Shown: positions 28,977 through 46,572 of the stretch, piece by piece
Position numbering within the stretch: position 1 is the stretch's first letter
Layout of the letters: the number at the start of each line of letters is the position of its first letter
NCBI GenBank assembly: GCA_003056285.1
Contig: NDWU01000009.1
Coordinates: 1-55,032, forward strand
Source: Candidatus Terraquivivens tikiterensis
Lineage (GTDB): Archaea; Thermoproteota; Nitrososphaeria_A; Caldarchaeales; Wolframiiraptoraceae
Direction: 5' to 3'
DNA length: 55,032 nt
Position numbers and translations under genes: made by a program
Notes under the pieces: generated by a model
Seen by the model: only the letters and a program-made list of their open reading frames with translations
Databases searched by the model: none
Told to the model about the DNA's origin: nothing

Positions 28977-29001
28977 GAATACCCGGCCGTAGCTCGTGGG
29001 C

Positions 29002-30102: not shown

Positions 30103-30127
30103 CACGCTTGGTAGCGTCGGTGGTTAG

Positions 30128-31135: not shown

Positions 31136-31139
31136 CGCG

Positions 31140-31625
31140 ATGCGCCAGTGGAGGCTTATCGATACTGGCCTTAGGCCTGCGTCAGAGAACATGGCATTGG
31201 ACGACGCGATCTTGGAGTGCAAGGCCGATGGCCTGGTGCCCGATACCGTAAGGTTTCTGAGGTTCAGCCCACCCGCCGTCCTCGTCGGGTACCACCAGGA
31301 CGTCGAGCAAGAGGTCCGCTTGGAATACGCGAGGGAGAAAGGTATAGAGGTCAACAGGAGGATAACGGGGGGAGGTGCCATATACTTCGACAGCTCAGCC
31401 GTCGGGTGGGAGGTGATAGCATCGAAGCGCTCGCTGTGCGGGGATTACTCTTTGGAATGGGTTTTCAAGAAGATGTGCGAGTGCGTCGTAAACGCCCTGA
31501 AGGTGTTTGGTTTGGACGCCCGCTTCAGGCCTAGGAACGACATAGAGATAGGCGGCAGGAAGATATCCGGTACGGGCGGCGTGGAAAGGGGGAGGCTTTT
31601 CTTTTTCAAGGTACACTCCTCGTAG
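31140..31625 (+). CDS. lplA: lipoate-protein ligase LplA, N-terminal part (frameshifted)
   Basis: 161 aa. Typical LplA motifs: RLIDTGLRPASENMALDDAI, RFLRFSPPAVLVGYHQDVE, NRRITGGGAIYFD and the catalytic Lys in IGGRKISGTGGVERG. The ligase activates lipoate with ATP and attaches it to a carrier lysine. The frame breaks at CTTTTCTTTTTCAAGG (about 31599-31614): moving to the -1 frame gives FQGTLLVDFDVDTMVKALKI, the normal LplA continuation, which is the next feature. A missing T in the run would explain it; programmed slippage is the alternative. Confidence 0.85.
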   Translation: MRQWRLIDTGLRPASENMALDDAILECKADGLVPDTVRFLRFSPPAVLVGYHQDVEQEVRLEYAREKGIEVNRRITGGGAIYFDSSAVGWEVIASKRSLCGDYSLEWVFKKMCECVVNALKVFGLDARFRPRNDIEIGGRKISGTGGVERGRLFFFKVHSS

Positions 31626-31642
31626 ACTTCGACGTCGATACG

Positions 31643-32737
31643 ATGGTGAAGGCGCTGAAGATCCCGATAATAAAGCTAAAGGACAAGGAGCTGGAATCTG
31701 TCAAGAAGAGGGTAACCTGCCTCAAGTGGGAGCTGGGTTACGCGCCGGATTACGATAGGGTCAGGGATGTCTTGGTAAGGGGCTTCGAAGAAACGCTCGG
31801 AATAGAGCTCAAGCCTGGGGAGCTAACGGAGAGAGAGTTAGAGCTTTTCGAGAAGAGGTTACCGTGGTTCAAATCTGAGGAATGGGTATTCATGGACAGG
31901 CGCTCGCCAAAAGGCTCAGCGATGGTCCATGCGGTCGACAAGAAGCCGGGCGGCGTCGTCCGCGTATCCTTGGCCGTGGACAGGGATGCGAACGTCATAA
32001 AAAGCGTCCTGATAACAGGAGACTTCTTCATCTTCCCGCAAAGGGCAATAATGGATTTGGAGGCCGCCCTAAAGTTCATCCCGACGGATGCTGGCAGGAT
32101 AAGGGAGGCTGTCCATAGGGTATTCGAGGAGGGGCGCGTCAGGGTACTCGGAATGGCTGAGGACGACTTCGTGGAGCTCATACTCGAGGCCCTGGAGAAG
32201 GCAGATCTTGAGGCCTTCGGCATAGACTGGAGCGAGGCCAACAACGTATACCCGGTGACGAAGGACATCGTCTCAACGCTGAAGAGGGGCTTCGACTACA
32301 TGCTGCTACCTTACTGCTCCAAAATGACGTCATGCGAGTATAGGAGAAGGGACGGGTGCGCTAAGTGCGGCGGGTGCACTGTTGGCGAGGCTTACACACT
32401 GGCCGAGGAATTCGGCCTAAAGCCCATAACGATTCATAGCTTCGAGCACCTGATGGAAACTCTGAGGGCGATGAGGGCTAACGGAGCGAGGGGGTTTGTT
32501 GGTTGCTGCTGCGAAGCATTCTACGTAAAGCATCGCGACGAGATGAGGGATGCGGGCGTGCCGGGTATAATAATAGATATCGAGGAGAAAACTTGCTACG
32601 ACTTGGGAAAGGCTGAGGAGGCTTACAGGGGAGGCTTCGAGGCCCAAACTAGGCTGAACCTGGAGCTCCTCAGGAAGATCTTATTGGCTGCGTCGAAGGT
32701 TGGTGACGGAAATTGCAGAGGTTTGACGTGGCGGTAG
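31643..32737 (+). CDS. LplA C-terminus fused to LplB and DUF116 domains
   Basis: 364 aa from the first ATG; the conserved frame is open from about 31606. Residues 1-85 complete LplA. Residues about 95-180 are the LplB accessory domain (KPGGVVRVSLAVDRDANVIK, SVLITGDFFIFP). Residues about 200-340 are a DUF116 domain with a Cys-rich site (CEYRRRDGCAKCGGC) and GFVGCCCEAFYVKH, IDIEEKTCYDLG. Joined with the upstream frame this is one LplA-LplB-DUF116 protein of about 530 residues. DUF116 probably binds a metal or Fe-S centre; a role in lipoate assembly is suggested by the fusion. The 3 prime end overlaps the flavoprotein gene by 25 bp. Confidence 0.8.
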   Translation: MVKALKIPIIKLKDKELESVKKRVTCLKWELGYAPDYDRVRDVLVRGFEETLGIELKPGELTERELELFEKRLPWFKSEEWVFMDRRSPKGSAMVHAVDKKPGGVVRVSLAVDRDANVIKSVLITGDFFIFPQRAIMDLEAALKFIPTDAGRIREAVHRVFEEGRVRVLGMAEDDFVELILEALEKADLEAFGIDWSEANNVYPVTKDIVSTLKRGFDYMLLPYCSKMTSCEYRRRDGCAKCGGCTVGEAYTLAEEFGLKPITIHSFEHLMETLRAMRANGARGFVGCCCEAFYVKHRDEMRDAGVPGIIIDIEEKTCYDLGKAEEAYRGGFEAQTRLNLELLRKILLAASKVGDGNCRGLTWR

Positions 32738-33783
32738 TCGGCGGCGGCCCTGCTGGCTCTGCCTGCGCGATAAAATGCGCAGAGATGGGCTTCAAGACTG
32801 CTCTACTGGAAAAATTGACGGGCAATAGTTCGAAGGCATGCGGCGGCGTTACACCGACCGTAACGGGGCATCTTTTGGAGGTCGGGTTAGGGTTAAGCAT
32901 GCCCAAGTCTGTGCTATCGGTACCGGAAAGGCTAGGGCTTTTCTACGTGCCGCCTAGCGGGAAGGGCAACGGCGGTCTCATGAGAAATTACGAGCTACTC
33001 AACCTACGAAGGGTTGCCTTCGACGAGTGGCTTAGAAACGAGACTAAGGCGCGTAGCGTCCATCTCCTTTACGGCTCGGAGTTCATCGGGATTAAGCTAG
33101 GAAAGCAGAACGCTTTGAAGGCTAGGGTTGGCGGTAACCTAGAGACCATAGAATCTACTTACGTAGTCGGCGCGGACGGCGCGAGCTCAAGGGTCCGTTC
33201 CTGCCTATTTCCAGGCCAACGTTTTAGGACGCTTAGCGTTGTTCAGGAATTTTGGCATGCGGAAAGCGATCTCGGAGACAATTTTTACGTGATCCTCAAC
33301 AGTAGAATCGTCCCGACGTACGGTTACGTAATTCCAAAGGACGGAGGCTTCCTCGTAGGCTTCGGCTTTGAAAGGGGTACTGTCAACCCGCTGTCCTGCA
33401 TGGACGGGCTTTTGAGGTTGTTAAGGGAAGAGTTTTCCTTCAGGCCAGTATCTATGGTGAGAAGGGAGGTCGCTGCCATACCGTTTGCAATACCGCCCGC
33501 GGGTCTTGGGAGCGTCGTCCTAGTCGGAGATGCAGGAGGGTTTTGCAACCCATTCTCGGGCGAGGGCATAAGGTTCGCGATAGAGAGCGGCTTGGCCGCA
33601 GCAGAGTCCATCAAGACGTCGGAGGAGGAGGGCTCAGGGCTGCTGCCGGTCTATGGGTCGAGGGTCGATGGGCTTAGGGATTTCTTGCTCAGGATGCACG
33701 CGTTCGTGAGAAACCTCGACGACGGGAAGAGAGAGGGCTTCGTCAAGGAGGAGCTAACCCGCGTTAACGTATTCGGGCTTTAG
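32713..33783 (+). CDS. geranylgeranyl-reductase-like FAD oxidoreductase
   Basis: 356 aa. The N-terminal FAD site is DVAVVGGGPAGSACAIKCAE; GADGASSRVRSCL and VVLVGDAGGFCNPFSGEGIR follow, all diagnostic of the geranylgeranyl reductase/PHBH flavoprotein family. In archaea this family saturates isoprenoid lipids, but here it overlaps the lipoate-ligase gene. Similar flavoproteins have been described beside lipoate-binding-protein assembly genes in sulfur-oxidising prokaryotes. A role in lipoyl biosynthesis is therefore an alternative to lipid saturation. Confidence 0.8.
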   Translation: MQRFDVAVVGGGPAGSACAIKCAEMGFKTALLEKLTGNSSKACGGVTPTVTGHLLEVGLGLSMPKSVLSVPERLGLFYVPPSGKGNGGLMRNYELLNLRRVAFDEWLRNETKARSVHLLYGSEFIGIKLGKQNALKARVGGNLETIESTYVVGADGASSRVRSCLFPGQRFRTLSVVQEFWHAESDLGDNFYVILNSRIVPTYGYVIPKDGGFLVGFGFERGTVNPLSCMDGLLRLLREEFSFRPVSMVRREVAAIPFAIPPAGLGSVVLVGDAGGFCNPFSGEGIRFAIESGLAAAESIKTSEEEGSGLLPVYGSRVDGLRDFLLRMHAFVRNLDDGKREGFVKEELTRVNVFGL

Positions 33784-34852: not shown

Positions 34853-35205
34853 CGTCCGTGGGCTACTATTTTATTCTATTTCATAGGGGGATAAAAACCG
34901 GCTTCCAGCCTCCTCGATGGAGGACTGCCAATGCGTTAACGCCGCGTATGGGAGTCCAGATTTCTCCGCGGCGGAACTTTGCGAATAAAGCTTATCTGTG
35001 CTTTTGCGAAGGCTGGGACGGTCATAGGATAAACCTGCTGAGGACAAAGACCTCGTAGCCGGCCGTGCCTCGCCAAAAATGCACCCAAAGCGGATTGGGA
35101 TAAGCCCGGTTGAAAAAGCAGAAAACCACTGGCTTACAGCCTTTGGCAGCTCATGGGCCTGCCTTAGCTTATCTTGTATATATGTATTCGTACGATTTCA
35201 ACAAA
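34853..35205. other. intergenic stretch with an IS right-end remnant
   Basis: No gene is supported. At 35097-35153 on the plus strand GGATAAGCCCGGTTGAAAAA, GCAGAAAACC, ACTGGCTTACAGCC and TTTGGCAGCTCAT repeat the IS right-end layout in degraded form. Just upstream of the hypE start lies TTTTATTCTATTTCATAGGG, a possible hypE promoter region. Confidence 0.4.
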
Positions 35206-35217
35206 AGTATATATTTG
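35206..35217 (+). promoter_or_regulatory. TATA box of the first AbrB-PhoU regulator
   Basis: AGTATATATTT is about 30 bp upstream of ATG 35241, consistent with a leaderless transcript. Flanking ATTCGTACGATTTC and GACGAAATACG share the CGTACG/CGAAAT words seen around the operator of the paralogous regulator at 40651-40704. Confidence 0.45.
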
Positions 35218-35240
35218 GAAGACGAAATACGTTGCTTGAC

Positions 35241-36323
35241 ATGCGCCCACACCTCCGTAAGGTCATAAAACTTGGCAGGTCTGCCCTGGCCGTTACGCTA
35301 CCCAAAGAGTGGACCTCCTCTGTCAAGTTAAAGGAGGGCGACTACGTCCTCATCGACGATGCCGAAGAAAACTGCATCAGGATAAAGAAGGCCGATAGCG
35401 AGTTTGAGGTCCCTCCAGACGTCTGCGTCATTAACGCAGACGTCTGCACTTCACAGAATATGTTATGGAGGATCATAATCGGCGCGTACATGGTCGGTCA
35501 CAAAATCATATGGATACAGTCTAAGAATGGCTTTAAGCCCAGCGACGTCGAAGGGATAAGGGCCCTGACGGAGATGCTCGTGGGGCTTCACGTGACGGAG
35601 CAGACAGATAACATAATCATACTCCAGAGCCTTGCTGATCCCTCTAGACCTACGATCGATAGCTCCATCCGCAGGCTCCACCTAATATCTTCCAGCATGT
35701 ACGAGGTGGCACTGGGCGTACTTTTGGGCGAGGAAGAACCAAGGCGGCTTGAGGACATCAGGGCGCTCGGCGTAGAGTGCGACAAAGTTTACTGGCTTGT
35801 AACTAGGCAGCTACTACTTTCGGTCAACGACAGGGCTTTGGCAAGGGAGCTTGGTATAAGGTCCCACCTTTGGCTTCTAGGGAACAGGGCTGTCGTCAGG
35901 ATGTTGAAGAGCATAGTCACAGATAGCAAGTACATATGCAGGTACGTCGAAAACCTGCTTAAGCTTGGATACAGACCTGACATAGAGACTTCCCGCTGGT
36001 TTGCCAACGTACGCGACGAGGTCAGGAGCATATCCAACACGGCGATAGACTCGCTCATCACAAAGGACCTGGTAGGCGGCAACAACACAATAGAGTCTGC
36101 GAATAAGCTCGCTAGGGTTCTCGAGGCTGCAGAGATGTCGGCCCCAAAAAAGTTTGACGTTAACGTCTGCCCTTCCCTCTCAGGCATAGTCAGGTCTTTA
36201 AGGAACATAGTCCTAAACTACAGATACATAGCCGAGGTTGCGATCAACAGGTCGGTCGAGGAGTCTGGCGAGTACGTGAGCATAGATACTGGTGGCTTTG
36301 AGGAGAGGGCCGTTAACCTTTAA
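35241..36323 (+). CDS. AbrB-like/PhoU-domain transcriptional regulator
   Basis: 360 aa from ATG 35241 (the frame is open upstream but runs through the promoter). Residues 1-45 are a SpoVT/AbrB-like DNA-binding fold (LRKVIKLGRSALAVTLPKEW). The rest is helical with two PhoU-like units ending YRYIAEVAINRSVEESG. It is paralogous to the protein at 40730-41827. Both adjoin gcvH/hdr genes, so I infer they control the redox modules, perhaps sensing a metal or phosphate through the PhoU part. Confidence 0.75.
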   Translation: MRPHLRKVIKLGRSALAVTLPKEWTSSVKLKEGDYVLIDDAEENCIRIKKADSEFEVPPDVCVINADVCTSQNMLWRIIIGAYMVGHKIIWIQSKNGFKPSDVEGIRALTEMLVGLHVTEQTDNIIILQSLADPSRPTIDSSIRRLHLISSSMYEVALGVLLGEEEPRRLEDIRALGVECDKVYWLVTRQLLLSVNDRALARELGIRSHLWLLGNRAVVRMLKSIVTDSKYICRYVENLLKLGYRPDIETSRWFANVRDEVRSISNTAIDSLITKDLVGGNNTIESANKLARVLEAAEMSAPKKFDVNVCPSLSGIVRSLRNIVLNYRYIAEVAINRSVEESGEYVSIDTGGFEERAVNL

Positions 36324-36342
36324 AATAAATGGGTGCAAACGC

Positions 36343-36798
36343 ATGAGCGGCGAGACAGATCTGAACTCCTTAACGTTCAACGTAAGGTTGCGCTGGGATC
36401 GTTCCACGGGCGCCGAGGCCCTTACAAAGGGGGGCAGCGTTCGCCTGGATATGCCCAAGGATTTCGGCGGCCTGGGAAGGTATCCGTGCCCGGATGAGCT
36501 GTTCCTTTCAGCCCTAGGGGGCTGCATGATAACCACATTCATTTACTTTCAGCGGAAGCTGAATGTGAGGATAAACGGTATGGAGGTTGATGTCGAGGGG
36601 GATGTTAAGCTGGATGGCAAGGGATACAGGATGACAGACGTAAGGATCAAGTTAAAAGTCTTGGCGGATGACCCAGAGCTTGAGAAGGCCACAAGATGCG
36701 CAAAGTTGGCCGCAGAATACTGCCACCTAACCAGGTCCATAAAACCCTCGATCGCCGTGAAGACAGAATACGAGGTAGTTACTCCAAGCCATTCTTGA
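36343..36798 (+). CDS. OsmC-family peroxiredoxin-like protein
   Basis: 151 aa from ATG 36343. CPDELFLSALGGCMITTFIY and the second Cys in AEYCHLTRSI match the OsmC/Ohr two-Cys layout, which reduces organic hydroperoxides. Many OsmC/Ohr proteins are regenerated by lipoyl proteins, a known link that fits the neighbouring lipoyl-type GcvH 93 bp downstream. The electron donor here is inference. Confidence 0.85.
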   Translation: MSGETDLNSLTFNVRLRWDRSTGAEALTKGGSVRLDMPKDFGGLGRYPCPDELFLSALGGCMITTFIYFQRKLNVRINGMEVDVEGDVKLDGKGYRMTDVRIKLKVLADDPELEKATRCAKLAAEYCHLTRSIKPSIAVKTEYEVVTPSHS

Positions 36799-36890: not shown

Positions 36891-37319
36891 ATGGTGAAGC
36901 TGTTTGATAAGTACGAGTTCCCAGAGGGCTTGTACTACTCCAAGGACCACCTATGGTTAAAAATCGAGGGAGACGTCGTAAGGGTCGGTGTAACAGACTT
37001 GGCACAGCAAGCGGCAGGTCCGATAGTCTATGTTAGGCTCATGCCGAAGGGTAAGACAGTGGAGGCAGGGAAGCCCATAGGGACCATGGAAACCGGAAAA
37101 TGGGTCGGGCCCCTGAAGTCTCCAGTATCCGGAACTATAGTCGAGGTCAACGAGGCCCTGAAGTCCCAGCCTAAGCTTCTAAACGAGGACCCGTACGGAA
37201 AGGGGTGGTTAGCCATCATAAAACCATCAAAGCTTGAAGAAGAGCTGAAAGGCCTATTCTCTAAGGTTGAAGACATGATCCCGTGGTTGCAGGAGGAGAT
37301 ACCGAAACTCATCAAGTAG
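36891..37319 (+). CDS. gcvH: GcvH-like lipoyl carrier protein with intact lipoyl-lysine
   Basis: 142 aa. The H-protein fold is clear: SKDHLWLKIEGDVVRVGVTD, then METGKWVGPLKSPVSGTIVE with Lys at the lipoylation position (8 residues before the Pro of PVSG), then NEDPYGKGWLAI. The C-terminus is extended by about 20 residues (FSKVEDMIPWLQEEIPKLIK). TTTTTAAAAAA at 36822-36832 may be its TATA box and GAGGGTG at about 36875 a ribosome site. No glycine-cleavage P, T or L genes are nearby, so it is probably a lipoyl carrier for another pathway and the likely target of the ligase at 31.1 kb. Confidence 0.88.
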   Translation: MVKLFDKYEFPEGLYYSKDHLWLKIEGDVVRVGVTDLAQQAAGPIVYVRLMPKGKTVEAGKPIGTMETGKWVGPLKSPVSGTIVEVNEALKSQPKLLNEDPYGKGWLAIIKPSKLEEELKGLFSKVEDMIPWLQEEIPKLIK

Positions 37320-37344
37320 GTGAGCTTAAAAATAATCTTTTGTC

Positions 37345-37368
37345 GTTACCTAACCCGGCGAGAAAACC
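37345..37368 (-). repeat. dispersed 25-bp motif, copy 2
   Basis: On the minus strand GTGGTTTTCTCGCCGGGTTA then GGTAACG. It matches the copies at 18385 and 53998 at 19 or more positions. It lies just after the gcvH stop. Confidence 0.45.
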
Positions 37369-37387
37369 ACACCATTCGGGCAGGGAT

Positions 37388-37605
37388 GGATCGCCGACAA
37401 GGGTTAAATATGTAATAAAAGTTTTGAGCACGTGCCTGGACGTCCAAAGGACCAGATAGGGCTCCGGCCTAAAGGCGAAGGTGGTTCGGCAAGCGGGCTA
37501 TATGTCCATAAAAGGTGCTGGTTGGCACGGCCCAGAACCCGGTAGGATGGGGGCTAAGCCCTGAAGAACCGAGAACCTTCCTGCTTCAGCCGTTGGTGTG
37601 TGTCA
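37388..37605 (+). mobile_element. decayed tnpB-derived element, second lineage
   Basis: From GATCGCCGACA...TTAAATATG to about 37530 this stretch matches 46573-46772, including GGACGTCC, AGGGCTCCGGC, GGTTCGGCAAGC and GGTTGGCAC. The second copy continues into recognisable tnpB zinc-finger coding sequence. The end (CTTCCTGCTTCAGCCGTTGG then TGTGTGTCAG) resembles the IS right end and abuts the stop of the convergent hdrCB gene. Confidence 0.45.
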
Positions 37606-38772
37606 GATTAGGCCTATTTGCTCAGCCACAAGCTCCGATATGTCGACGACGCGCTTTCCGTTTTGCGTCGCCGTGGCTGCTTGGGCAAGCGTCTGAACGC
37701 ATGTCGGACATGCTGATACGATAACATCGGCACCAGTGGAGGCCAGCATTCCATACCTCCTCCGAGCAAGGCTTTCAGCCAGGGAAGGGTTAACGGCCTT
37801 CAGCAAACCTCCAGAACCGCAGCATATCGACTCTTTCCCAGAATACTCTGGCTCGACGAGAGCATCCGCGATGGTTTGCAGGACGGCTCTTGGCTCCCTT
37901 ATAACGCCCGATATCCTTCCCAGCTCGCATGGGTCGTGGTATGTTAGCGTCACGTCTGCCTTGGGAACTGTAAGCTTTCCTGAAGCCATGTAGACGTCAA
38001 GGAGTTGGCTCGAGTGGAGTACCTCAAACCCTGGCTTTCTCCCTAGGAGTCTCGGATACTCGTGCTTAAGCGCAAGGTAGCAACCAGGACAACCAGTCAC
38101 GACCTTCTTAGCACCGATAGACTCTACCATCTCGACGTTATGCATTGCCAAGGCCCGTGCTTCTCTCGTGGCGCCGGAAAGAACGAGCGGGTGGCCGCAG
38201 CACCACTCATCCTTCAATAGCGTCCAATCCTCGTTCGCAGAGTTTAGGATGGATGAGATTGCCTGAGCGACTGTCTGAACCCTGCCAGAGAAAGACGTTA
38301 CGCAGCCTACAAAGTATACGACCTCTGCCGAGTCCTTAAAGCTTACGTCAGCACCAGTATAAGCTACCCAGTCCGTCCTTGATGCGTTGTCCATCATGTA
38401 GATGTTCTTTGAAAGCCTAAGCGCCTCGGACAGCCTGACGACGTTCTCGGGCACGAACCCATGGTCGTACAGCATCTCCCTGACCCTTGACCATAATTCC
38501 AGCAAATCGATCTCTACGTGGCAGACCTCCCTGCACAGCCCACAAAACGTACAGTTGAAGAACCTTTTGGAGAGGAGCCTTCCGAGCCTGTGTATTCTCT
38601 TCTCATCCACCCTGCCGTCGTTCTTTATGAGTTCTTTAATCGCGAATACCTTGCCCCTTGGCGATTCGGATTCCCATCCCAAAAAGTAATGAACGGGGCA
38701 CCTCTTCATGCAATAGCCGCACTGCGCGCACGCGAAGACGTCCTCCAGCTGTAGCTTCGGCAGGACGAGCAC
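37603..38772 (-). CDS. HdrC-HdrB-like iron-sulfur/CCG protein, copy 1
   Basis: 389 aa from GTG. The N-terminal HdrC/GlpC part has two [4Fe-4S] motifs, CAQCGYCMKRCP (near residue 15) and CTFCGLCREVCH (near residue 74). Two CCG domains follow: VGCVTS...EWCCGHPLV...GCPGC and DPCELGR...SICCGSGG...ACPTC. Those of HdrB hold noncubane Fe-S clusters that cleave disulfides. It is the last gene of the gcvH(Met)-glcD-hdrCB operon (2-bp gaps). The GlcD plus CCG arrangement resembles GlcD-GlcF glycolate or lactate dehydrogenases, so oxidation of a hydroxyacid is one plausible role. Confidence 0.85.
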   Translation of the reverse strand: MLVLPKLQLEDVFACAQCGYCMKRCPVHYFLGWESESPRGKVFAIKELIKNDGRVDEKRIHRLGRLLSKRFFNCTFCGLCREVCHVEIDLLELWSRVREMLYDHGFVPENVVRLSEALRLSKNIYMMDNASRTDWVAYTGADVSFKDSAEVVYFVGCVTSFSGRVQTVAQAISSILNSANEDWTLLKDEWCCGHPLVLSGATREARALAMHNVEMVESIGAKKVVTGCPGCYLALKHEYPRLLGRKPGFEVLHSSQLLDVYMASGKLTVPKADVTLTYHDPCELGRISGVIREPRAVLQTIADALVEPEYSGKESICCGSGGLLKAVNPSLAESLARRRYGMLASTGADVIVSACPTCVQTLAQAATATQNGKRVVDISELVAEQIGLI

Positions 38773-38773
38773 C

Positions 38774-40201
38774 CTAAACCACCTTCCTTAAAAACCACAC
38801 GCCGTCCATGAGCATGCCGTAAAGCCTTCCTGGAAGGGGCAGGCCCAGGGCAAGCTCAGCACCTATCGTTTTACCCGGGTTTAGCACGCCCTGCGGGTCC
38901 AGCGCCCTTTTCAGGCTTTCAAGCTCCCTCTTTTTCTCAGGCTCGGCCGCTTCCATGAACGGGAAGTTCCATAAACCGTAACCATAGGGTTTACCTCCGG
39001 CCTTTATGGCAGCTTCCAGCACTTTCTTAGTTATTGCGGCCTCCGTGAGGTACCTTATGGATTTTCTCTCATCGCAAAGGAAAAGCTGGAACATCAGCGC
39101 CCTATCCCTTGATACGAACATTACCTCAACCTCTACGTCTAAACGTGCTAGGCTGCCTAGTTGCCAACAATACCCGACCATGTCCAGTATCTTAGGTACC
39201 GGTATTATGAACTCGTTGCCTAGTATGCTCGGGCCCCATTTCTTAACCCTCAACGTATAGAACCTCTCTTCCCACTCACGCCCCGCCTCGTCTTCTGGGG
39301 CAAGGTATCCACGGTACCGGTTTACGACCTCCTCCAGCGTAAGGTAATACTTATCGACAGCATGCTTGTAACCCGTGAAGCATCCGAAGAAGTACGCGTC
39401 AGGATTGACGTAGTCCTTCGTCCTGGTAAACCCAAAGGTCCTTAGGACGAGGGAATGCGGGCTCGTTAGCCTAAGGACCTCCTGAGCTGCCATTAGGGCG
39501 TTGGCCAAGCTGCTAAAGCTTGCCATAAACGGCCTCTCCGCCTCGCTCTTTGGAACAAGCTTCAAAGTTAGATCCGTGAATACGCACAGGATGCCCTCGG
39601 ACCCGAACAATTGCGATAGGCTAGGATCGCTGTTATCGTCAAGCATGACGGCCCTTCCGTCCGGAAGGACGGCGGTTGCCTTAACAACGTTCTTAATGAA
39701 CGGGCCATGCTTAAGGGAGCCGTAACCTATTCCGCCAGTAGCCGCCCAGCCTCCTACCGTCGAGCTTAGGGCGCTCGAGGGGTAGACCGGTAGCTCCCAG
39801 CAGGTCTTCTGCAAAAAGCGCATGATGTCTTCCCACACGATCCCACACTCGACCGTCAGCAAACCATGCTCTTCATCCAGATGGACTATCCTGTTAAGCC
39901 CCGTCAGATCCAAAACTACGCCACCTCTCACTGGAACCGTTCCCCCGAATCCCCATGTAGCGCCGCCCCTGGGTATAACTGGGATTTTGTACTCGTTCGC
40001 CAGCCTAATGACCTCTGCCACATGCTCTGCGCTCTCCGGCCGTACTATAGCATCAGGGGTAGTGTCGAAGAGCAGCTTCACGGATTTGGGTAAGGCCGCC
40101 AGGTCGTGCGCGTAAACTAGCTTTTCTAGCGGATCCACGGAGACGTGCTCTTCTCCTAGCTTGTTGATGAGTACGTTCAAAAAATCGTTAGGTATCGCCA
40201 T
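38774..40201 (-). CDS. GlcD-like FAD-linked oxidoreductase
   Basis: 475 aa. The FAD-binding PCMH domain (DAIVRPESAEHVAEVIRLAN, PVIPRGGATWGFGGT, YPSSALSSTVGGWAATGGIG) occupies about residues 40-220. The C-terminal FAD-linked oxidase domain ends with ALDPQGVLNPGKTI. Family members oxidise D-lactate, glycolate or other 2-hydroxyacids. It sits between gcvH(Met) and hdrCB in one operon, so electrons from FAD probably pass to the Fe-S/CCG protein. Many archaeal homologues are annotated only as glycolate oxidase-like; the substrate is unknown. Confidence 0.88.
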   Translation of the reverse strand: MAIPNDFLNVLINKLGEEHVSVDPLEKLVYAHDLAALPKSVKLLFDTTPDAIVRPESAEHVAEVIRLANEYKIPVIPRGGATWGFGGTVPVRGGVVLDLTGLNRIVHLDEEHGLLTVECGIVWEDIMRFLQKTCWELPVYPSSALSSTVGGWAATGGIGYGSLKHGPFIKNVVKATAVLPDGRAVMLDDNSDPSLSQLFGSEGILCVFTDLTLKLVPKSEAERPFMASFSSLANALMAAQEVLRLTSPHSLVLRTFGFTRTKDYVNPDAYFFGCFTGYKHAVDKYYLTLEEVVNRYRGYLAPEDEAGREWEERFYTLRVKKWGPSILGNEFIIPVPKILDMVGYCWQLGSLARLDVEVEVMFVSRDRALMFQLFLCDERKSIRYLTEAAITKKVLEAAIKAGGKPYGYGLWNFPFMEAAEPEKKRELESLKRALDPQGVLNPGKTIGAELALGLPLPGRLYGMLMDGVWFLRKVV

Positions 40202-40207
40202 CGTGGC

Positions 40208-40606
40208 TCACTTGGCTACTTCACCGAAGTACCGTGCGTCTTCTTCATAGTTAATCGGCCTAAGCACGGCGATCCAGCCCTCTCCGTACGGGTCCTCGTT
40301 TATGAGCTCAGGCCTTCCCCTAAGCCTCTCGTTGACCTCAACGATCCAGCCGGATACCGGGCTTCTTAGGAGCATAACGCGCATGCCGTGTTCAACGGAG
40401 CCGAATGGGTGCCCCCTAGTAACCAGGCGGCCTTTTGGGAGGACCCTAACGAACTCTATCGTACCGACGGATTCCGCTGCTTCCTTCAAAAGACCGACGC
40501 GGGCGAGTATCTCGGAAACGTCGTCACCCTGCTCAAACCTTACCCACATACCATGGCTGGCTTTTGATGTGAAAAGCTTTCCTACGAGTGCAGAAACTGC
40601 TGCCAT
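40208..40606 (-). CDS. GcvH-like protein lacking the lipoyl-lysine (Met)
   Basis: 132 aa from ATG 40606; the open frame runs to 40678 but that extension covers the inverted repeat. The H-protein core is clear: FGSVEHGMRVMLLRSPVSGW and ELINEDPYGEGWIAVLRP. Counting 8 residues back from PVSG, the lipoyl-lysine position is Met (codon ATG; AAG would be Lys). It starts the glcD-hdrCB operon. It may serve as a non-lipoylated structural subunit, or the change could be one base error, but the third copy also lacks Lys. Confidence 0.82.
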   Translation of the reverse strand: MAAVSALVGKLFTSKASHGMWVRFEQGDDVSEILARVGLLKEAAESVGTIEFVRVLPKGRLVTRGHPFGSVEHGMRVMLLRSPVSGWIVEVNERLRGRPELINEDPYGEGWIAVLRPINYEEDARYFGEVAK

Positions 40607-40650
40607 TTTCCATACCACCTCCAAAAGATGCTTGGTTACGGTGCAATATG

Positions 40651-40704
40651 ATTCGTGACGTAGTATTTCATATGCCAAACAAATGTTACGTATACGTCAC
40701 GAAT
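40651..40704. promoter_or_regulatory. 12-bp perfect inverted repeat in a divergent promoter
   Basis: ATTCGTGACGTA (40651-40662) and its exact complement TACGTCACGAAT (40693-40704) flank the region between gcvH(Met) on the minus strand and the AbrB-PhoU regulator on the plus strand, centres 42 bp apart, about four helical turns. AATAAATAC at 40702-40710 is the likely TATA box of the regulator, 20-28 bp before ATG 40730. The right arm overlaps it, so binding there could repress. I infer an autoregulatory operator. Confidence 0.6.
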
Positions 40705-40729
40705 AAATACTAGACGTACGCGTTTTTGT

Positions 40730-41827
40730 ATGGAGTTGAGCATACAGGGCAGCCGTCTGCACGGCCGCACGCTAAGAAAGGTAATGAGGCTCGGCCGCTC
40801 AGCTTTATGCATCACGTTACCGAAAGCTTGGGTTGATGCCGTTGGGATAAAGGAGAACGATTATTTAAGCGTTAGGCAGAACGGTGATTCGTTGGAGTTA
40901 AGCAAAGTTGAGCGGGAAGGCGATGCCGGACCGCCAGTCTGTATAATAAACGTGGACGCGTGCGTAGAGCCCCATTCCATCACTAGGGTTTTGATAGGGG
41001 CTTACGTAGCCGGTCACGACACGATTTGGCTACAATCCAGAAGGCCGTTCACGCAGAGACAGATCGAGGAAGTTAGCGCGGTGACGAGAAAGCTCATTGG
41101 GGTCCACATCGTGGACAGCTCTGAGAACATCATAATAATCCAGAACCTCTCGAATCCCGTAAGACCTTCGATGGACAGCTCCATCAGAAGGTTTCATAGC
41201 CTCGTGGTGGACATGCTCGAGAACGCCCTGAGCATGCTCTCGAGCGGTAACCAGGAAACCATCAGGCGCATCATGAGCATAGGTGAGGAGTGCGACAGGC
41301 TTTACTGGTTAACGGTAAGACAGCTTATGAGGGCTGTAAGAGACCCGGGCGTAAGGGAGGCCCTCGGCATAAGGTCAACCATGTGGTTGCTTGGAAATAG
41401 GCTGGTCTTAGTTCTGCTTAAGAGGGCTGTGAAACTGAGCGAATCGATCGCTCTTTCAACGTACGAAATATTCACGAGCGGGTGCGGTATTGAGAGGCGT
41501 ATCGTAGATCTGTGCACGGATTTTTGCGCGGCGTTAAAGCGCACATCCCAAAACGCTATAGACTCCCTCCTCTCGAGGGACCTTTTGCTGGCAAATAGGG
41601 CAATAGCCCAGATTAACGCCTTAGTTGAGGAGAAGATCGAGAACGGTGAAAAGTTGGCCAGCAACAGCAAATCGCTCAGGCACCACCTCTTTAGGATAAT
41701 GAACGCCCTTAAGGAAATCGGTTTGTGCTACCGTCAGATAGCAGAGGTTGCGATAAACAGGTCGCTGGAGGAGTCTGGAAAATTCGTTACCATAGAGTGT
41801 CCTCCAAAGGACTTGGGCGAGGGTTAA
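40730..41827 (+). CDS. AbrB-like/PhoU-domain transcriptional regulator, paralogue 2
   Basis: 365 aa. The same plan as 35241-36323: an AbrB-like head (LRKVMRLGRSALCITLPKAW), then PhoU-like helices ending YRQIAEVAINRSLEESGKF. Internal matches such as DSSIRRFHS, WLLGNRLV and IDSLLSRDLL show a clear gene duplication. It is flanked by two minus-strand hdrCB operons, the obvious regulatory targets. Confidence 0.75.
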   Translation: MELSIQGSRLHGRTLRKVMRLGRSALCITLPKAWVDAVGIKENDYLSVRQNGDSLELSKVEREGDAGPPVCIINVDACVEPHSITRVLIGAYVAGHDTIWLQSRRPFTQRQIEEVSAVTRKLIGVHIVDSSENIIIIQNLSNPVRPSMDSSIRRFHSLVVDMLENALSMLSSGNQETIRRIMSIGEECDRLYWLTVRQLMRAVRDPGVREALGIRSTMWLLGNRLVLVLLKRAVKLSESIALSTYEIFTSGCGIERRIVDLCTDFCAALKRTSQNAIDSLLSRDLLLANRAIAQINALVEEKIENGEKLASNSKSLRHHLFRIMNALKEIGLCYRQIAEVAINRSLEESGKFVTIECPPKDLGEG

Positions 41828-41830
41828 AAT

Positions 41831-43066
41831 TCATAGTAGGTTACTCTGCTGAGCGATCAGCTGGCTCAAGTCCAGTACCTTGACCCTTCCATCCGTTTTC
41901 GGAGCAACGGAAGCAAAGGCCTGCACGCAGGTCGGACATGCCGAGAGCACGTACTCGGCCTCCGTACCCATCAACATCTTCAACCTTTGAATGGCGAGCC
42001 GCTCCGAGAGCTCAGGGTTCGTCGCCCTCAGCATCCCTCCGGAGCCGCAGCATATGCCCTCCGTACCGTGACCGTATGGTTCGGCGAGCTCCCGGGTAAC
42101 CTGCCTGATAACCTTCCTAGGTTCCTCGATGATCCCTCCGAGCCTACCCAGCTCGCATGGGTCGTGGTACGTAACCCGAGCCTCCAGGACTGGGACCTTT
42201 AATCTGCCTTCAGCCATGTACCTGTTTAGCAGCTCAGTAAAGTGTAGCACCTCGATGCCGAGCTCATGGCCAAGCAGCCTCGGCCACTCGTGCTTCATCG
42301 CAAGATAGCAACCTGGGCAGCCTGTCACGACAGCCTCGGCACCTACCGATACCATCTGTTCCAGGTTGTGCCTTACCAAGTCCGCTGCCCTCCTAATACC
42401 GCCGCTCACGGCGAGCGGGTGGCCGCAGCAGACCTCGTCCTTCAATAACGTCCAATCCTCACCCACGTAATTTAATATAGAAGTTATGGCAGCGGCTATG
42501 TCCTGCGCCCTGCCCTGGTAGGACGATATGCAGCCTACAAAATACACGACCTTAGCATTATCCTTAACGTTAACGTCCACTCCAGTGTATAAGGACCAGT
42601 TGGTCCTAGCTGAGTTATCCACGCCAAAGACGTTCTTCGTCTCCTTTACGATGTTGTGCAGGTTGCTCAAGAACTCAACGGCACAGTGAACGTTTCCGAG
42701 CGTCTCCACGAAGTACTCCCTCATGGAGGATATGAGCGATGGCGTATCTATTCCGATCGGGCAGAATACGCTGCACCTGCCGCACAGCGAGCAGTTCAGG
42801 AAGAGGGCGTCGGCAAGCTCCCACACCTCCTCATCCGACGGCGACCTTATCCCGAAAAGCTTCGCCTTCAGGCTGTAGTCCTTACGGACCAGGGGCCTGA
42901 ATCTTCTGATCATCCCGCCGCAGCTCGTGGGGAAGCCCAAGGGATGCGGATTAGAGTTCAGGAGCTTGTACAGCGAGCACTCTTCCCTGCATATCTCGCA
43001 CCTGACGCAGCCATCGAGCTCGATCATCTGCTTGACGCTAAGCGTCAAGCCTCTCGCCCTTGCCAT
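41831..43066 (-). CDS. HdrC-HdrB-like iron-sulfur/CCG protein, copy 2
   Basis: 411 aa. N-terminal [4Fe-4S] motifs are CVRCEICREECS and CSLCGRCSVFCP, with an insert of about 30 residues (LNSNPHPLGFPTSCGGMIRR) carrying another Cys. The two CCG units are VGCISS...EVCCGHPLA...GCPGC and DPCELGR...GICCGSGG...ACPTC. It follows the NarI-like membrane gene by 3 bp. By analogy with HdrED, DsrMK and related complexes, the pair would exchange electrons between membrane heme or quinone and a cytoplasmic disulfide or dithiol. Confidence 0.85.
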   Translation of the reverse strand: MARARGLTLSVKQMIELDGCVRCEICREECSLYKLLNSNPHPLGFPTSCGGMIRRFRPLVRKDYSLKAKLFGIRSPSDEEVWELADALFLNCSLCGRCSVFCPIGIDTPSLISSMREYFVETLGNVHCAVEFLSNLHNIVKETKNVFGVDNSARTNWSLYTGVDVNVKDNAKVVYFVGCISSYQGRAQDIAAAITSILNYVGEDWTLLKDEVCCGHPLAVSGGIRRAADLVRHNLEQMVSVGAEAVVTGCPGCYLAMKHEWPRLLGHELGIEVLHFTELLNRYMAEGRLKVPVLEARVTYHDPCELGRLGGIIEEPRKVIRQVTRELAEPYGHGTEGICCGSGGMLRATNPELSERLAIQRLKMLMGTEAEYVLSACPTCVQAFASVAPKTDGRVKVLDLSQLIAQQSNLL

Positions 43067-43069
43067 ACC

Positions 43070-43912
43070 TTACTTCACGCTCCTTACAGTTTTAGGTACG
43101 GAGTTGACCAGCATCGCCATGGGGCCAGCGAACGCGTGCCAGAGCCTTCCGGAGTGGGGTATGGCGCCGACGAAGACCCCCAGGAAGAATCCGGAAGTCG
43201 GCCAGAGGACGTTGTAGAGCAGCTCTATTTGTGCAGGGCTTAGACCTGCCATTAGCTGCGCTATACCGTATGCTATGAACATGAACTTACCAGATTCCGG
43301 AAAGCCAAACTTCACGATGGTTGCCGCCTCGGCCATGTACCTGAAGAGGAACCATACGACGGGCATGAAAAGACCGACGGCGTCTTCCCTCGTCCCGAAC
43401 ATGAATTTCTTCTTGACGAACCTCCTATGTATAGCAAGGGCCTCTGCGAAGAACAACACGACGGCCATCGAGAGGTTATCAACAAGAAGGAAGACCGCCC
43501 AGATCAACGGAAGCTCGGTACCTAGCTCGTGGAATATGTAGCCGGGAAAGAATGGAGACCTGAAGAACTCGGCTACCAGCTCTTGAACGCTTGAGACGCC
43601 CGCGGCTATGTCGGCAGCTATATGGTTCGAAAGTATCAACAAAACGTAAAAAGAAACGAAGGATGCTTTCTCCAACCCCCTAAGCCTCTCGTACTTATAT
43701 AGCCTATGCTGACCAAAGACCTTGACGAAGAAAGCCTTGACGATCGCCGCTAAAGAGCGGGGATTTAGGACTGTTAAGAGCGCACCCTTGATTGTTCCGG
43801 CAACGCTCTCTGCTCCGAGGAACCATATCCTGATGTTCCACAGGGCACCGACGATCAGGGACAACGTCCCTATTAGGAAAAAAGTCGACGCAAGGAGTAT
43901 CGCATCCGGCAT
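43070..43912 (-). CDS. NarI/DsrM-like membrane redox subunit
   Basis: 280 aa with about six membrane helices. Candidate heme ligands are the His in LILSNHIAAD, HELGTELPL and the pair in IPHSGRLWHAFAGP. The last motif is typical of the cytochrome b-type gamma subunit of nitrate reductase and of DsrM/HdrE proteins. It precedes hdrCB copy 2 by 3 bp and follows gcvH(Arg) by 32 bp, so the three form one operon. Heme binding is inferred. Confidence 0.7.
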   Translation of the reverse strand: MPDAILLASTFFLIGTLSLIVGALWNIRIWFLGAESVAGTIKGALLTVLNPRSLAAIVKAFFVKVFGQHRLYKYERLRGLEKASFVSFYVLLILSNHIAADIAAGVSSVQELVAEFFRSPFFPGYIFHELGTELPLIWAVFLLVDNLSMAVVLFFAEALAIHRRFVKKKFMFGTREDAVGLFMPVVWFLFRYMAEAATIVKFGFPESGKFMFIAYGIAQLMAGLSPAQIELLYNVLWPTSGFFLGVFVGAIPHSGRLWHAFAGPMAMLVNSVPKTVRSVK

Positions 43913-43944
43913 GCGGCCTCACCGTAAAAGGGCGGCGTCTCTAC

Positions 43945-44313
43945 TTAAAGCAGAGCGTTCAACTCCTCGATGTTGTTCGGCTTCAGAACCGCTATCCAGC
44001 CCTTACCGTAAGGGTCCTCGTTTATCAGCTGTGAGTTTTTGATGACCTCTTCGTTTACTTCTACGATCGAGCCCGTGACTGGGCTGCGCAGTATGATTAT
44101 CTTTCTTCCGTGCTCTATGGACCCGAACGGGTATCCTTTGTTAACGCATCTGCCCTTCGGTAGGGCCCTGAATGCCTCTACCTGGCCTATCGTCTTGAGG
44201 ACCGTATCCTTTATGCCTACCCTTATCATCGGCGTCGGAGATCTTTGCTCGATCTTGACCCAAAGATTATCGTACGTTAAAAGCCGTTCTTGGACTGACC
44301 TTCTCTCCGACAC
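43945..44313 (-). CDS. GcvH-like protein lacking the lipoyl-lysine (Arg)
   Basis: 122 aa from GTG. The H-protein core reads YPFGSIEHGRKIIILRSPVT and QLINEDPYGKGWIAVLKP. The lipoyl position (8 before Pro of the SPVT turn) is Arg, with a Lys one residue later. It shares FGS-[VI]-EHG with the Met variant, so the two are sister paralogues distinct from the METGK protein. It starts the operon with the NarI-like protein and hdrCB copy 2. A shifted lipoylation on the next Lys cannot be excluded. Confidence 0.82.
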   Translation of the reverse strand: MSERRSVQERLLTYDNLWVKIEQRSPTPMIRVGIKDTVLKTIGQVEAFRALPKGRCVNKGYPFGSIEHGRKIIILRSPVTGSIVEVNEEVIKNSQLINEDPYGKGWIAVLKPNNIEELNALL

Positions 44314-44441
44314 GATCTTTCACCACGGATAAAGATAAAAAGTATAGAGAAGTATAACCCACGTCGTATAAAGACTTAGCATGCTATGTTGATTTATGTA
44401 TGTATATACCTGTTGAACGGAAAAACGGTAATATATAATAA

Positions 44442-45659
44442 CTAGATCAGCCCGAGCCTTCCAGCAAACAGCTCTACAACATCCAGGACCCGTATCTTTG
44501 CGCCTATCCTCTTCGCACCGTCCATCAACGTTATCTTGCAGGCTGGGCATGCAGAGGTAAGGATTTCGGCCCCAAGGGCCTGCGCTTGCCTAACCCTTTT
44601 TTCCGCTATGCTTAGCCTCAGCTCGTCGTTCACCGCCTGAAGGATCCCTCCGCCACCGCAGCAACGGACATCCCTCTTGCTCTCCGGCATCTCCCTGAAG
44701 GAGCTCGCTACCGCGAAAATAACCCGCCTCGGCTCGTTTATAACGCCGCTTAGCCTCGCGAGCTCGCACGGGTCATGGTACGTTACTAGTGCGCTCTCCT
44801 TTTCTACACCATCTACGCTTATGCGCTCCCTTCGGATGCATAGGTCGAGCAGCTCCACGATGTGCACAACGTTAAACCTTAGGGGCCTGCCTATCAACGA
44901 AGGATACTTCTGCTTGATAGTCCTTGCGCACCCAGGGCACGCAGACACCACAAGCTTAGCTCCCAACCTCTCTATTGCCCCAACGTTATGCTCCGCCATC
45001 TTCCTAGCGCCCTCCTCGTCACCTATCATGAGAAGGGGCGCGCCGCAGCACCACTCATCCTCTCCGAGAAGCGTCCAGCTTACACCCGCACGGTTTAACG
45101 CCAAAGACGCTGCATAGGCTATATCCTGCGCAACGGCCTTAAACGAGGAAGTGCAGCCGACGAAATACACGACCTCGGAAGGTTCGTTTATCCTTGCGTT
45201 ATCGAGGCCCAAGTAGTCAACCCACATCGGCCTCGCGTCGTTCCCCACGCCGTACGCGTTGTGCGTGTCGAGTATGAAGCCATCGACCTCCTTTAGCACA
45301 GGCGGGTGCTTTCCGAGTCCATAGACGATCTTCCTGAGCGCTTCCCAGAGCCTGTCAGTCTGTATCCCGAACGGGCATACGGCCATACACCTGCCGCAGA
45401 GTGCACAGTCGTAAACGCTCTCGACGTAGCTCTCAACCTCCTCCGGCTTGCCAGCGCCTACCCTATATAGAGCGAGCGACGAGCCCATACCGCTCCTGAT
45501 AACCCTAAGCATAGCCGAGGCCCTGCCACCCGGCATGACCTGAGGCTTCTTCAGAACCTCGTAGACCGGGCAGTAGTCCGCGCAGTGGGCACACCTCGCG
45601 CACGTCTCGAGCTGCAGCATCGTAAGCGGCGATACCTCTTTAAGGACCTCCAGCTTCAT
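44442..45659 (-). CDS. HdrC-HdrB-like iron-sulfur/CCG protein, copy 3
   Basis: 405 aa. [4Fe-4S] motifs CARCAHCADYCP and CALCGRCMAVCP; CCG units VGCTSS...EWCCGAPLL...ACPGC and DPCELAR...VRCCGGGG...ACPAC. Its start overlaps the NarI-like gene by 4 bp (ATGA), so the two are coupled. No gcvH is attached to this copy. It is the most divergent of the three in the first CCG unit. Confidence 0.85.
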   Translation of the reverse strand: MKLEVLKEVSPLTMLQLETCARCAHCADYCPVYEVLKKPQVMPGGRASAMLRVIRSGMGSSLALYRVGAGKPEEVESYVESVYDCALCGRCMAVCPFGIQTDRLWEALRKIVYGLGKHPPVLKEVDGFILDTHNAYGVGNDARPMWVDYLGLDNARINEPSEVVYFVGCTSSFKAVAQDIAYAASLALNRAGVSWTLLGEDEWCCGAPLLMIGDEEGARKMAEHNVGAIERLGAKLVVSACPGCARTIKQKYPSLIGRPLRFNVVHIVELLDLCIRRERISVDGVEKESALVTYHDPCELARLSGVINEPRRVIFAVASSFREMPESKRDVRCCGGGGILQAVNDELRLSIAEKRVRQAQALGAEILTSACPACKITLMDGAKRIGAKIRVLDVVELFAGRLGLI

Positions 45660-46219
45660 GCCTTCATACCCCCGTAGAGCCTGCCGTGCCTGATGCTGTA
45701 GGCTAGGACCGTGAAGGGCGATGCTATTACATGGAAAAGCTTGCTGAAGGGCATGTACATTATCAGAATCTGGGCCGCAAGCCCGTGAACGGCAAGCCAG
45801 ATCTGCGAGGGCGTTTCCTTGAGCTGCATCGCTATGCTCGGAGAGATCTTGAGCGTGAGCGGTTCGTGAACGTAGGGCGAAACCCTCATCATGTTCCCGG
45901 CTAGGAATACCGTGATCAAGATGGCAAGCAAGAAATAATCGTCGAACCCTGATATGCTCCTAACGGAGCCGTCGACTACCCTCCTTACCAGCAGCAGGCT
46001 AAAGCCGCCGAGAACTACCCAGCCGAGGTAGAATGGCAAATCCCTCGTCAAAAATTCCTCCGGCGCTATCCACGCAAACCATGAGGCCGACCAAACGCCT
46101 ATGGGCCTTAGGTGACCGAAAAGTATTAGAAAAAGCGAGACGTGTGCCGAGAAGGACATGAGCCAGAGGCCAAAGGATCTGGCCCTCCTCTTTATGAAAC
46201 GCCCCTGAAATACCAGCAA
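45656..46219 (-). CDS. NarI-like membrane redox subunit, main frame
   Basis: 187 aa from the first usable codon (TTG), four or five membrane helices. Candidate heme ligands are His in SFSAHVSLFLILFGHLRP, SPYVHEPLTL and MYMPFSKLFHVIASPFT; the last is the characteristic C-terminal NarI/DsrM motif. The N-terminal helix is in another frame upstream (next feature), so the gene is probably frameshifted. The frame is open upstream of the chosen start (IGLAIGQFVYL continues the first helix pair). It is coupled to hdrCB copy 3. Confidence 0.7.
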   Translation of the reverse strand: MLVFQGRFIKRRARSFGLWLMSFSAHVSLFLILFGHLRPIGVWSASWFAWIAPEEFLTRDLPFYLGWVVLGGFSLLLVRRVVDGSVRSISGFDDYFLLAILITVFLAGNMMRVSPYVHEPLTLKISPSIAMQLKETPSQIWLAVHGLAAQILIMYMPFSKLFHVIASPFTVLAYSIRHGRLYGGMKA

Positions 46220-46269
46220 ATAGACAAACTGCCCTATCGCAAGGCCTATGGACTTTGCCGATATTGGCC

Positions 46270-46422
46270 CTCCGGAGGATGGGTCCTGCCGGCCGATGAC
46301 GTCGAGAGCCAGGCGTATAGCTTTAAAGAGATGCCGAACAAGAAGACTGCATACGTAACCCAGGGCAGAGCCCCAAAGATAAGATCCATCAACGGCGTTA
46401 GGCTGGCGTCCAAACCATTCAC
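46270..46422 (-). pseudogene. N-terminal helix of the NarI-like gene in a shifted frame
   Basis: From GTG 46422 the minus strand encodes NGLDASLTPLMDLIFGALPW, then VTYAVFLFGISLKLYAWL, an obvious first membrane helix, before hitting a stop. The downstream 187-aa frame supplies the rest. The shift lies between about 46270 and 46300, in a run of CCTCCGGAGG/GGCCGGC. Confidence 0.55.
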
Positions 46423-46572
46423 CCTTCCTACATGTATAGCCGACTAAGGCGATTTAAGTTTGTATATATTTTTAAACAAGCCATATAATAGTTTTTGCCT
46501 TTTAGGTTTTGTTAACTTTGCAGCGGTTTAAAAGTTACCAAATCTGCGAGAAAGCCGCGTCTTTCAAGCGTT

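Follow-up and report, generated by a model that had tools for sequence, protein, structure and literature searches.

H-protein homologues without a lipoyl lysine, encoded with HdrD-type iron-sulfur proteins beside a lipoate-assembly locus in Candidatus Terraquivivens

Introduction

What use does an archaeon without glycine cleavage have for three homologues of the glycine cleavage H protein (GcvH), two of which have lost the lysine that would carry the lipoyl arm? The question is posed by a 55,032-nucleotide stretch (hereafter the window; contig NDWU01000009.1 of assembly GCA_003056285.1) from the genome of Candidatus Terraquivivens tikiterensis, a heat-loving archaeon (1.54 Mb in 39 contigs) whose family, the Wolframiiraptoraceae, lies within the Caldarchaeales (PMC9246946). 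An earlier reading of the letters (the sequence-only reading) had proposed that the window encodes a modular membrane redox system in which a lipoyl or GcvH-fold protein is a dedicated partner of fused HdrC-HdrB proteins. Here we report that the arrangement is real, conserved and partly new, and that it is kin to the lipoyl-Hdr (LbpA/sHdr) kind of system. Its most surprising part is a clade of H proteins without the lipoyl lysine, which we call arm-less and which is a new element with respect to the literature searched: open-access publications yielded no earlier description of GcvH paired with HdrD except in sHdr, or of a GcvH clade that is conserved without its lysine.

Results

The core of the system consists of nine genes, which include two tight operons:

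36891..37319, plus strand: GcvH_K, a lipoylable KW-type (LbpA-like) H protein (PF01597, 133 bits; lipoyl-lysine motif ETGKWVG)
37603..38772, minus strand: HdrD1, an Fe-S protein of fused HdrC-HdrB type that partners GlcD (PF02754, 113 bits, two CCG domains; placed by tree)
38774..40201, minus strand: GlcD-type FAD 2-hydroxy-acid dehydrogenase-like protein (PF01565, 129 bits; PF02913, 27 bits)
40208..40678, minus strand: GcvH_M, an H-protein homologue with Met (Thr in genome G003) for the lipoyl Lys (PF01597, 84 bits; alignments)
41831..43066, minus strand: HdrD2, a fused HdrC-HdrB-type Fe-S protein (CCG, 110 bits, two domains)
43070..43912, minus strand: NarI2, a hydrophobic multi-helix protein with invariant His97 and His259 (alignment; no Pfam, NCBIfam or PDB match)
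43945..44313, minus strand: GcvH_R, an H-protein homologue with Arg for the lipoyl Lys (PF01597, 84 bits; AlphaFold2 model)
44442..45659, minus strand: HdrD3, an Fe-S protein of fused HdrC-HdrB type that partners NarI3 (two CCG domains, 102 bits)
45656..46425, minus strand: NarI3, a NarI/DsrM-like cytochrome b subunit with a frameshift near 46279 (PF02665, 46 bits; DsrM model, 44 bits)

Read along the minus strand, the order is NarI3-HdrD3, then GcvH_R-NarI2-HdrD2, then GcvH_M-GlcD-HdrD1, and neighbouring genes of the latter two operons lie only 1-32 bases apart; GcvH_K, on the plus strand, is convergent with HdrD1. The genes named in the sequence-only reading are all present, and chance is ruled out by synteny in congeners, two of which (G004 and G005) have the entire 22-kb block in identical order.

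All three GcvHs score above the PF01597 cut-off, and alignment places Lys, Met and Arg at the lipoyl position, as had been claimed. Methionine is found there in GcvH_M of four species (threonine in G003) and arginine in GcvH_R of three. A further arm-less member, also with Arg, is encoded by G319 (L099) in an operon GcvH-GlcD-HdrD1, and Candidatus Scotarchaeum otlingeri (Geothermarchaeota, L145) has two arm-less copies, R1 and R2, both with Arg, beside NarI2-HdrD2. A tree of 83 GcvHs, computed with the lipoyl loop excluded, groups the 11 non-Lys proteins in one clade (support 100/99). Its two branches unite Terraquivivens GcvH_R with Scotarchaeum R1 (98/92), and Terraquivivens GcvH_M with the G319 protein and Scotarchaeum R2 (98/89). 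Elsewhere, on the canonical side of this tree, genome G023 encodes a GcvH homologue with Asp-Ser in place of Lys-Ala (L041:7411-7821), which has lost its lipoyl lysine independently.

Might GcvH_M and GcvH_R simply be functionless, degenerating GcvH duplicates? The variable residue at the lipoyl position (Met, Thr or Arg) would fit such decay, as would the breakage of the HdrD2-NarI2-GcvH_R operon in one congener (G001) and the loss of most of the block in another (G003). Yet a single old clade spans Caldarchaeales and Geothermarchaeota, the reading frames are open, the operons are tight, and residues around the former lipoyl loop are conserved, following the pattern GS.E.G(R/M/T)(K/R)(I/V)..LR in the alignment. 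Ratios of nonsynonymous to synonymous substitution rates (dN/dS) are 0.09-0.20 for GcvH_M, 0.11-0.15 for GcvH_R and 0.01-0.10 for GcvH_K, rough values given that several dS exceed 1, and those of the two arm-less proteins are well under 1. Degeneration is thus very improbable; GcvH_M and GcvH_R form an old clade without the lipoyl lysine that is under purifying selection.

The H-protein fold is retained in the AlphaFold2 model of GcvH_R (predicted local distance difference test score, pLDDT, 88.8; template-modelling score 0.82 to the Thermus H protein 1onl), in which Arg70 lies in the turn that corresponds to the lipoyl-lysine site. Lipoylation of the neighbouring (+1) lysine of GcvH_R was considered and rejected as a general explanation, because GcvH_M has Arg at that place and Scotarchaeum R1 reads Arg-Arg. 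The Arg branch tied to NarI2-HdrD2 has an invariant cysteine at GcvH_R position 56 (GRCVN) that is missing in the other arm-less proteins. Judging from the sequences, this cysteine could be a redox thiol that takes the place of the lipoyl arm.

Each of HdrD1, HdrD2 and HdrD3 combines a pair of 4Fe-4S motifs with a pair of complete CCG domains (PF02754, 102-113 bits); TfrB is the best NCBIfam match of all three, below the TfrB cut-off. In the HdrD tree, they and their close counterparts form one clade (98), outside sHdr/FadF and outside the genome's own GlcF and FadF. Within it, Scotarchaeum HdrD2 groups with Terraquivivens HdrD2 (100), and the HdrD1 of G319 with those of Terraquivivens and locus L143 (88). 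The pairing of Terraquivivens GcvH_R with Scotarchaeum R1 thereby parallels that of their HdrD2 proteins, and the grouping of GcvH_M, the G319 protein and Scotarchaeum R2 parallels the GlcD-linked HdrD1 of Terraquivivens and G319. Therefore, from the topologies of the two trees, the GcvH and HdrD branches match.

Two NarI-like subunits had been proposed, of which only NarI3 qualifies (PF02665, 46 bits); it is unbroken in the congeners G004 and G005. The protein at 43070-43912, NarI2, was rejected as a NarI homologue, since searches against Pfam, NCBIfam and PDB profiles and an hhalign comparison with NarI3 were all negative. Among 398 Thermoproteota genomes, NarI2 occurs in Terraquivivens only; elsewhere we found it in L143 and L145. 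It marks a rare NarI2-HdrD2 module. The membrane location that the proposal implies is supported for NarI3-HdrD3 and likely for NarI2-HdrD2, and finds no support for GlcD-HdrD1.

The other congeners have kept parts of the block. In G001 (contig C7, L035:16506-18784), frameshifts and a small inversion break HdrD2-NarI2-GcvH_R, while the flanking HdrD1, GlcD, GcvH_M and GcvH_K are intact. G003 has kept the lipoate genes, GcvH_K and GcvH_M and has lost the adjacent HdrD1-GlcD; the other HdrD modules were not found next to Reg2 (below) within the stretch examined.

Two further parts of the locus went unlisted in the sequence-only reading: the genes for lipoate assembly (28996-33783) and, at 36292, the OsmC gene. 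These and the regulators complete the locus:

28996..29958, plus strand: LipS2-type lipoyl synthase, radical SAM (NCBIfam NF053743, 222 bits)
30128..31135, plus strand: LipS1-type lipoyl synthase, radical SAM (NF053742, 226 bits)
31140..32737, plus strand: LplA-LplB-DUF116 lipoate/octanoate-protein ligase with a frameshift near 31600 (PF21948, 124 bits; PF01976, 38 bits)
32713..33783, plus strand: LipT-like FAD oxidoreductase of the geranylgeranyl-reductase superfamily (TIGR02032, 141 bits; its place beside lipS/lpl, which matches published accounts of lipT)
35079..36323, plus strand: Reg1, AbrB/MazE-type DNA-binding regulator (PF04014; orthologues by the same genes in L143, L145 and L099)
36292..36798, plus strand: OsmC/Ohr-family peroxidase-like protein (PF02566, 66 bits; a neighbour in L101, L110, L143, L145 and L099)
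40730..41827, plus strand: Reg2, AbrB/MazE and PhoU-domain regulator (PF04014, PF01895)

LipS1, LipS2 and LplAB, the enzymes of the sLpl(AB)-LipS1/S2 pathway, are thus all present and clustered with LipT, 3-8 kb from GcvH_K, with hypothetical genes on the flanks. LipS2 (222 bits) and LipS1 (226 bits) score under their cut-offs of 270 and 230 bits, and in each case the assigned family is the best match by far. The lplA frameshift lies within 31560-31660, in a T-rich stretch (ttttctttttc), and four congeners have one unbroken open reading frame of about 530 amino acids. Neither the lplA nor the NarI3 frameshift is seen in the congeners, and each represents sequencing error or real damage.

LipS2 exceeds 200 bits in exactly 7 of 44 Caldarchaeales genomes, and the same seven (G000, G001, G003, G004, G005, G023 and G026) have a KW-type GcvH; all 44 belong to one order, and the match is uncorrected for relatedness. 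KW pattern matches in G002, G007, G022, G024, G031, G040 and G041 did not fall at GcvH places and were excluded. Within the genus, the congener G002 lacks both LipS2 and the KW-type GcvH and has only a canonical GcvH. Family searches, on which all our genome-wide statements rest, found no GcvP, GcvT or lipoyl E2 in the T. tikiterensis genome (the GcvP and GcvT controls were positive), and hence no classical lipoyl consumer. Co-occurrence of LipS2 with the KW type, together with these absences, indicates that the lipoate pathway goes with GcvH_K rather than with glycine cleavage.

Membership of the cluster in a glycine-cleavage system, for which the GCV_H Pfam match might speak, is barely credible. 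The P and T genes are missing from the genome, as the sequence-only reading had said of the locus, GcvT was found in none of the six Terraquivivens genomes, and the GcvH that does resemble that of glycine cleavage is encoded separately, on a different contig. That orphan canonical GcvH (contig C1, L068:9392-9850) adjoins pyrimidine-biosynthesis genes.

GcvH_K is 89-96% identical in four congeners and carries the motif ETGKWVG, whereas ESVKA is usual at this place in canonical and other GcvHs. We tallied the neighbours of 42 GcvH genes at 40 loci, obtained by a Thermoproteota-wide search ranked by GcvH similarity alone. A CCG protein lies within 5 kb of 14 of the 19 KW-type genes, versus 1 of the 22 other lipoylable GcvHs (p=6.8e-6); counted per family, the figures are 11/14 versus 1/13 (p=3.4e-4). 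A GcvH-fold protein as partner of HdrCB, which the sequence-only reading had inferred, is thus backed by recurrent adjacency, which is conserved among the congeners and, where KW-type GcvHs are concerned, throughout Thermoproteota; homologues of the two genes are neighbours in relatives. The phrase "lipoyl or GcvH-fold protein" did conflate two things: one lipoylable GcvH with its own lipoate genes, and two operon-encoded proteins without the lysine that form a separate old clade.

The other lipoylable GcvHs keep different company. An adjacent CoA-disulfide-reductase-like flavoprotein is found for 13 of the 22 non-KW genes versus 1 of the 19 KW genes (p=2.9e-4). Loci from many Thermoproteota that combine an ESVKA/ESLKA GcvH with this flavoprotein (L043, L108, L113, L114, L117, L119, L122, L124, L127-L129, L133, L137 and L138) possibly represent a second lipoyl-redox pairing.

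A scan of named genomes also found the KW motif in Bathyarchaeota, Thorarchaeota, Baldrarchaeota, Desulfurococcaceae and Bacillota, and in GcvH-like genes of sHdr-like clusters of Sulfobacillus and Actinomycetota. The resulting 73 KW genes are a biased sample, in which Thorarchaeota are heavily represented. Within 5 kb, a CCG protein but no HdrA accompanies 42 of them, both accompany 10, and the other 21 lack a CCG neighbour. KW-type GcvHs are relatives of LbpA, the lipoyl protein of sHdr, but HdrA is missing from most of their neighbourhoods. One such neighbourhood, in Bacillota bacterium Soudan_17 (L197:6672-16673), reads LplAB-GcvH(KW)-GlcD-HdrD-GcvH(KW)-LipS2-LipS1.

These relationships raise the alternative that the locus is a variant of sHdr-LbpA, acting in sulfur oxidation or reduction, in which GcvH_K would be an LbpA whose lipoyl arm bears sulfur, and the HdrDs would process a persulfide without shuttling electrons. 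Besides the KW signature that GcvH_K shares with LbpA of the Sulfobacillus and Actinomycetota clusters, the HdrB-type CCG proteins and the lipoate-assembly genes, which are the same as in sHdr organisms, speak for it. The HdrDs, however, lie outside the sHdr/FadF clade, GcvH_K has no cysteine in its translation, unlike most LbpA, and neither an sHdrA-sized HdrA nor DsrE or TusA was seen in the block, TusA and DsrE not having been searched for genome-wide. HdrA is absent locally, as had been claimed; the genome does have one on another contig, a full-length HdrA that belongs to an HdrCBA-Mvh hydrogenase cluster, and no sHdr or glycine-cleavage set was found elsewhere in the genome. The sequence-only reading had set the locus apart from sHdr for want of HdrA. 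That is partly right: the KW-type GcvH is LbpA-related and stands beside HdrA in other genomes, but the HdrDs of the window are of a different clade. We consider the sHdr variant unlikely, though a serious contender.

The OsmC gene lies directly 5' of GcvH_K, and the same adjacency is seen in the congeners G001, G003, G004 and G005. Ohr proteins, of the OsmC family, are reduced by lipoylated proteins (PMC5962072). Conceivably, then, the locus is an antioxidant or thiol-repair module in which lipoyl-GcvH_K feeds OsmC and thiol enzymes, and the HdrDs are reductases fed by hydroxy acids or quinol. OsmC does stand beside the system in the window, in these four congeners and in L101, L110, L143, L145 and L099, but its adjacency is not enriched (KW 2/19 versus other 2/22), and three HdrD modules with two membrane partners look more like energy metabolism than repair, which makes this reading distinctly improbable.

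AbrB/MazE-type regulators, one with a PhoU domain, sit before GcvH_K and between the operons, and recur in L143, L145 and L099; they are likely dedicated transcription factors of the system. Apart from this locus, contig C38 of the same genome (L065:2570-5452) encodes a 961-amino acid RtcB-like protein with an apparent intein (GVGYDIN-CIPAGTRI...VVSN-CGVRL).

Discussion

The locus resembles several known systems and coincides with none of them. As in sHdr-LbpA (PMC6067878), where LbpA is essential to an Hdr-like system, a GcvH-fold lipoyl protein stands by HdrB-type proteins, with sLpl(AB), LipS1, LipS2 and LipT genes adjacent. Unlike sHdr-LbpA, the block has neither HdrA nor the sHdrC1B1-C2B2 set, its HdrDs come from another clade, and two of its GcvH paralogues are arm-less, whereas all 95 LbpA of that study have the lysine. 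GcvH_K has the lipoyl lysine of an LbpA (ETGKWVG) and GcvH_M and GcvH_R do not; the N- and C-terminal cysteines of LbpA, from which some archaeal LbpA are excepted (PMC6067878), have no counterpart in GcvH_K. The lipoate-assembly enzymes are those of the sLpl(AB)-LipS1/S2 study, in one block and a similar arrangement (PMC10332631); beyond that study, the locus offers a candidate lipoyl acceptor and a partner for it.

GlcD-HdrD1 combines a FAD subunit with a CCG Fe-S subunit, as do GlcF- and TfrB-type hydroxy-acid or fumarate enzymes, but its operon includes an arm-less GcvH and lies near lipoate assembly. In NarI3-HdrD3, a CCG Fe-S protein has a NarI-like cytochrome b as its partner, in the manner of DsrMK, HmcEF, TmcBC and EtfD(FadF). 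Model scores are far under the cut-offs for those systems, a second membrane partner (NarI2) is of an unassigned family, and a GcvH takes the place of DsrC or Etf as carrier.

HdrB-type CCG centres form or cleave disulfides, and lipoyl proteins alternate between dithiol and disulfide; GlcD-type proteins oxidize 2-hydroxy acids, and NarI-like subunits transfer electrons to or from quinones. Our preferred reading joins these activities in a lipoyl-protein redox hub, with GcvH_K as the shuttle between GlcD-HdrD1 and the membrane HdrDs and the arm-less GcvHs as docking or gating subunits; we judge the chances that it is right and that it is wrong to be about equal. LplAB, LipS1 and LipS2, perhaps with LipT, would lipoylate GcvH_K and make it a mobile dithiol/disulfide carrier, on whose lipoyl disulfide the CCG iron-sulfur centres of the HdrDs would act. 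GlcD-HdrD1 would pass electrons from a 2-hydroxy acid to lipoyl-GcvH_K, and NarI3-HdrD3 and NarI2-HdrD2 would oxidize dihydrolipoyl-GcvH_K at the membrane, with the electrons probably entering quinone. OsmC may draw on the same dithiol pool against peroxides. GcvH_M and GcvH_R would be permanently bound to HdrD1 and HdrD2, as subunits that hold the site where the carrier docks or control access to it.

The observations beneath this proposal are the gene content and its synteny, the co-occurrence with LipS2, the loss of the lysine in one clade under purifying selection, and the matching branches; from them we infer that GcvH_K is lipoylated and that complexes form, as well as the substrates, the direction of electron flow and the role of the arm-less proteins. 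Several findings weigh against the hub. Gene adjacency by itself is no proof of binding, lplA is frameshifted in this assembly, and NarI2 is without a known relative and has an unusable AlphaFold2 model (pLDDT 44.7). In G003, GcvH_M persists beside GcvH_K after the loss of the adjacent GlcD and HdrD1, so that GcvH_M may act without them there, or they may have moved. Locus L143 has GlcD-HdrD1 and NarI2-HdrD2 beside a KW-type GcvH only; therefore the arm-less protein is not obligatory.

A bolder proposal is that the arm-less H proteins constitute a new class: former lipoyl carriers turned permanent subunits of CCG-type HdrDs, each branch co-evolving with one HdrD and mimicking or gating carrier docking, as parts of a redox system that depends on lipoate, conserves energy and stands apart from glycine cleavage, 2-oxoacid dehydrogenases and sulfur oxidation. 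We put this forward tentatively, as possible but on the doubtful side. If the role is as proposed, an H-protein scaffold would have found a second use as a fixed part of an enzyme, once its supposedly defining residue had been lost.

For the most part, the residue after the lipoyl lysine (K-W versus K-A) tells carriers associated with Hdr apart from those associated with a flavoprotein disulfide reductase, and it could guide annotation of proteins that are now all named "glycine cleavage H protein". More broadly, the cluster hints at lipoic-acid redox chemistry beyond its known uses. Among archaea with LipS1/S2, sHdr is present in just 8% (PMC10332631), and the purpose of the lipoate pathway in many of the other 92% is puzzling. 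The neighbourhoods of KW-type GcvH with Hdr proteins give a concrete, testable answer as to how lipoate may be used across Thermoproteota, Asgard archaea and some bacteria.

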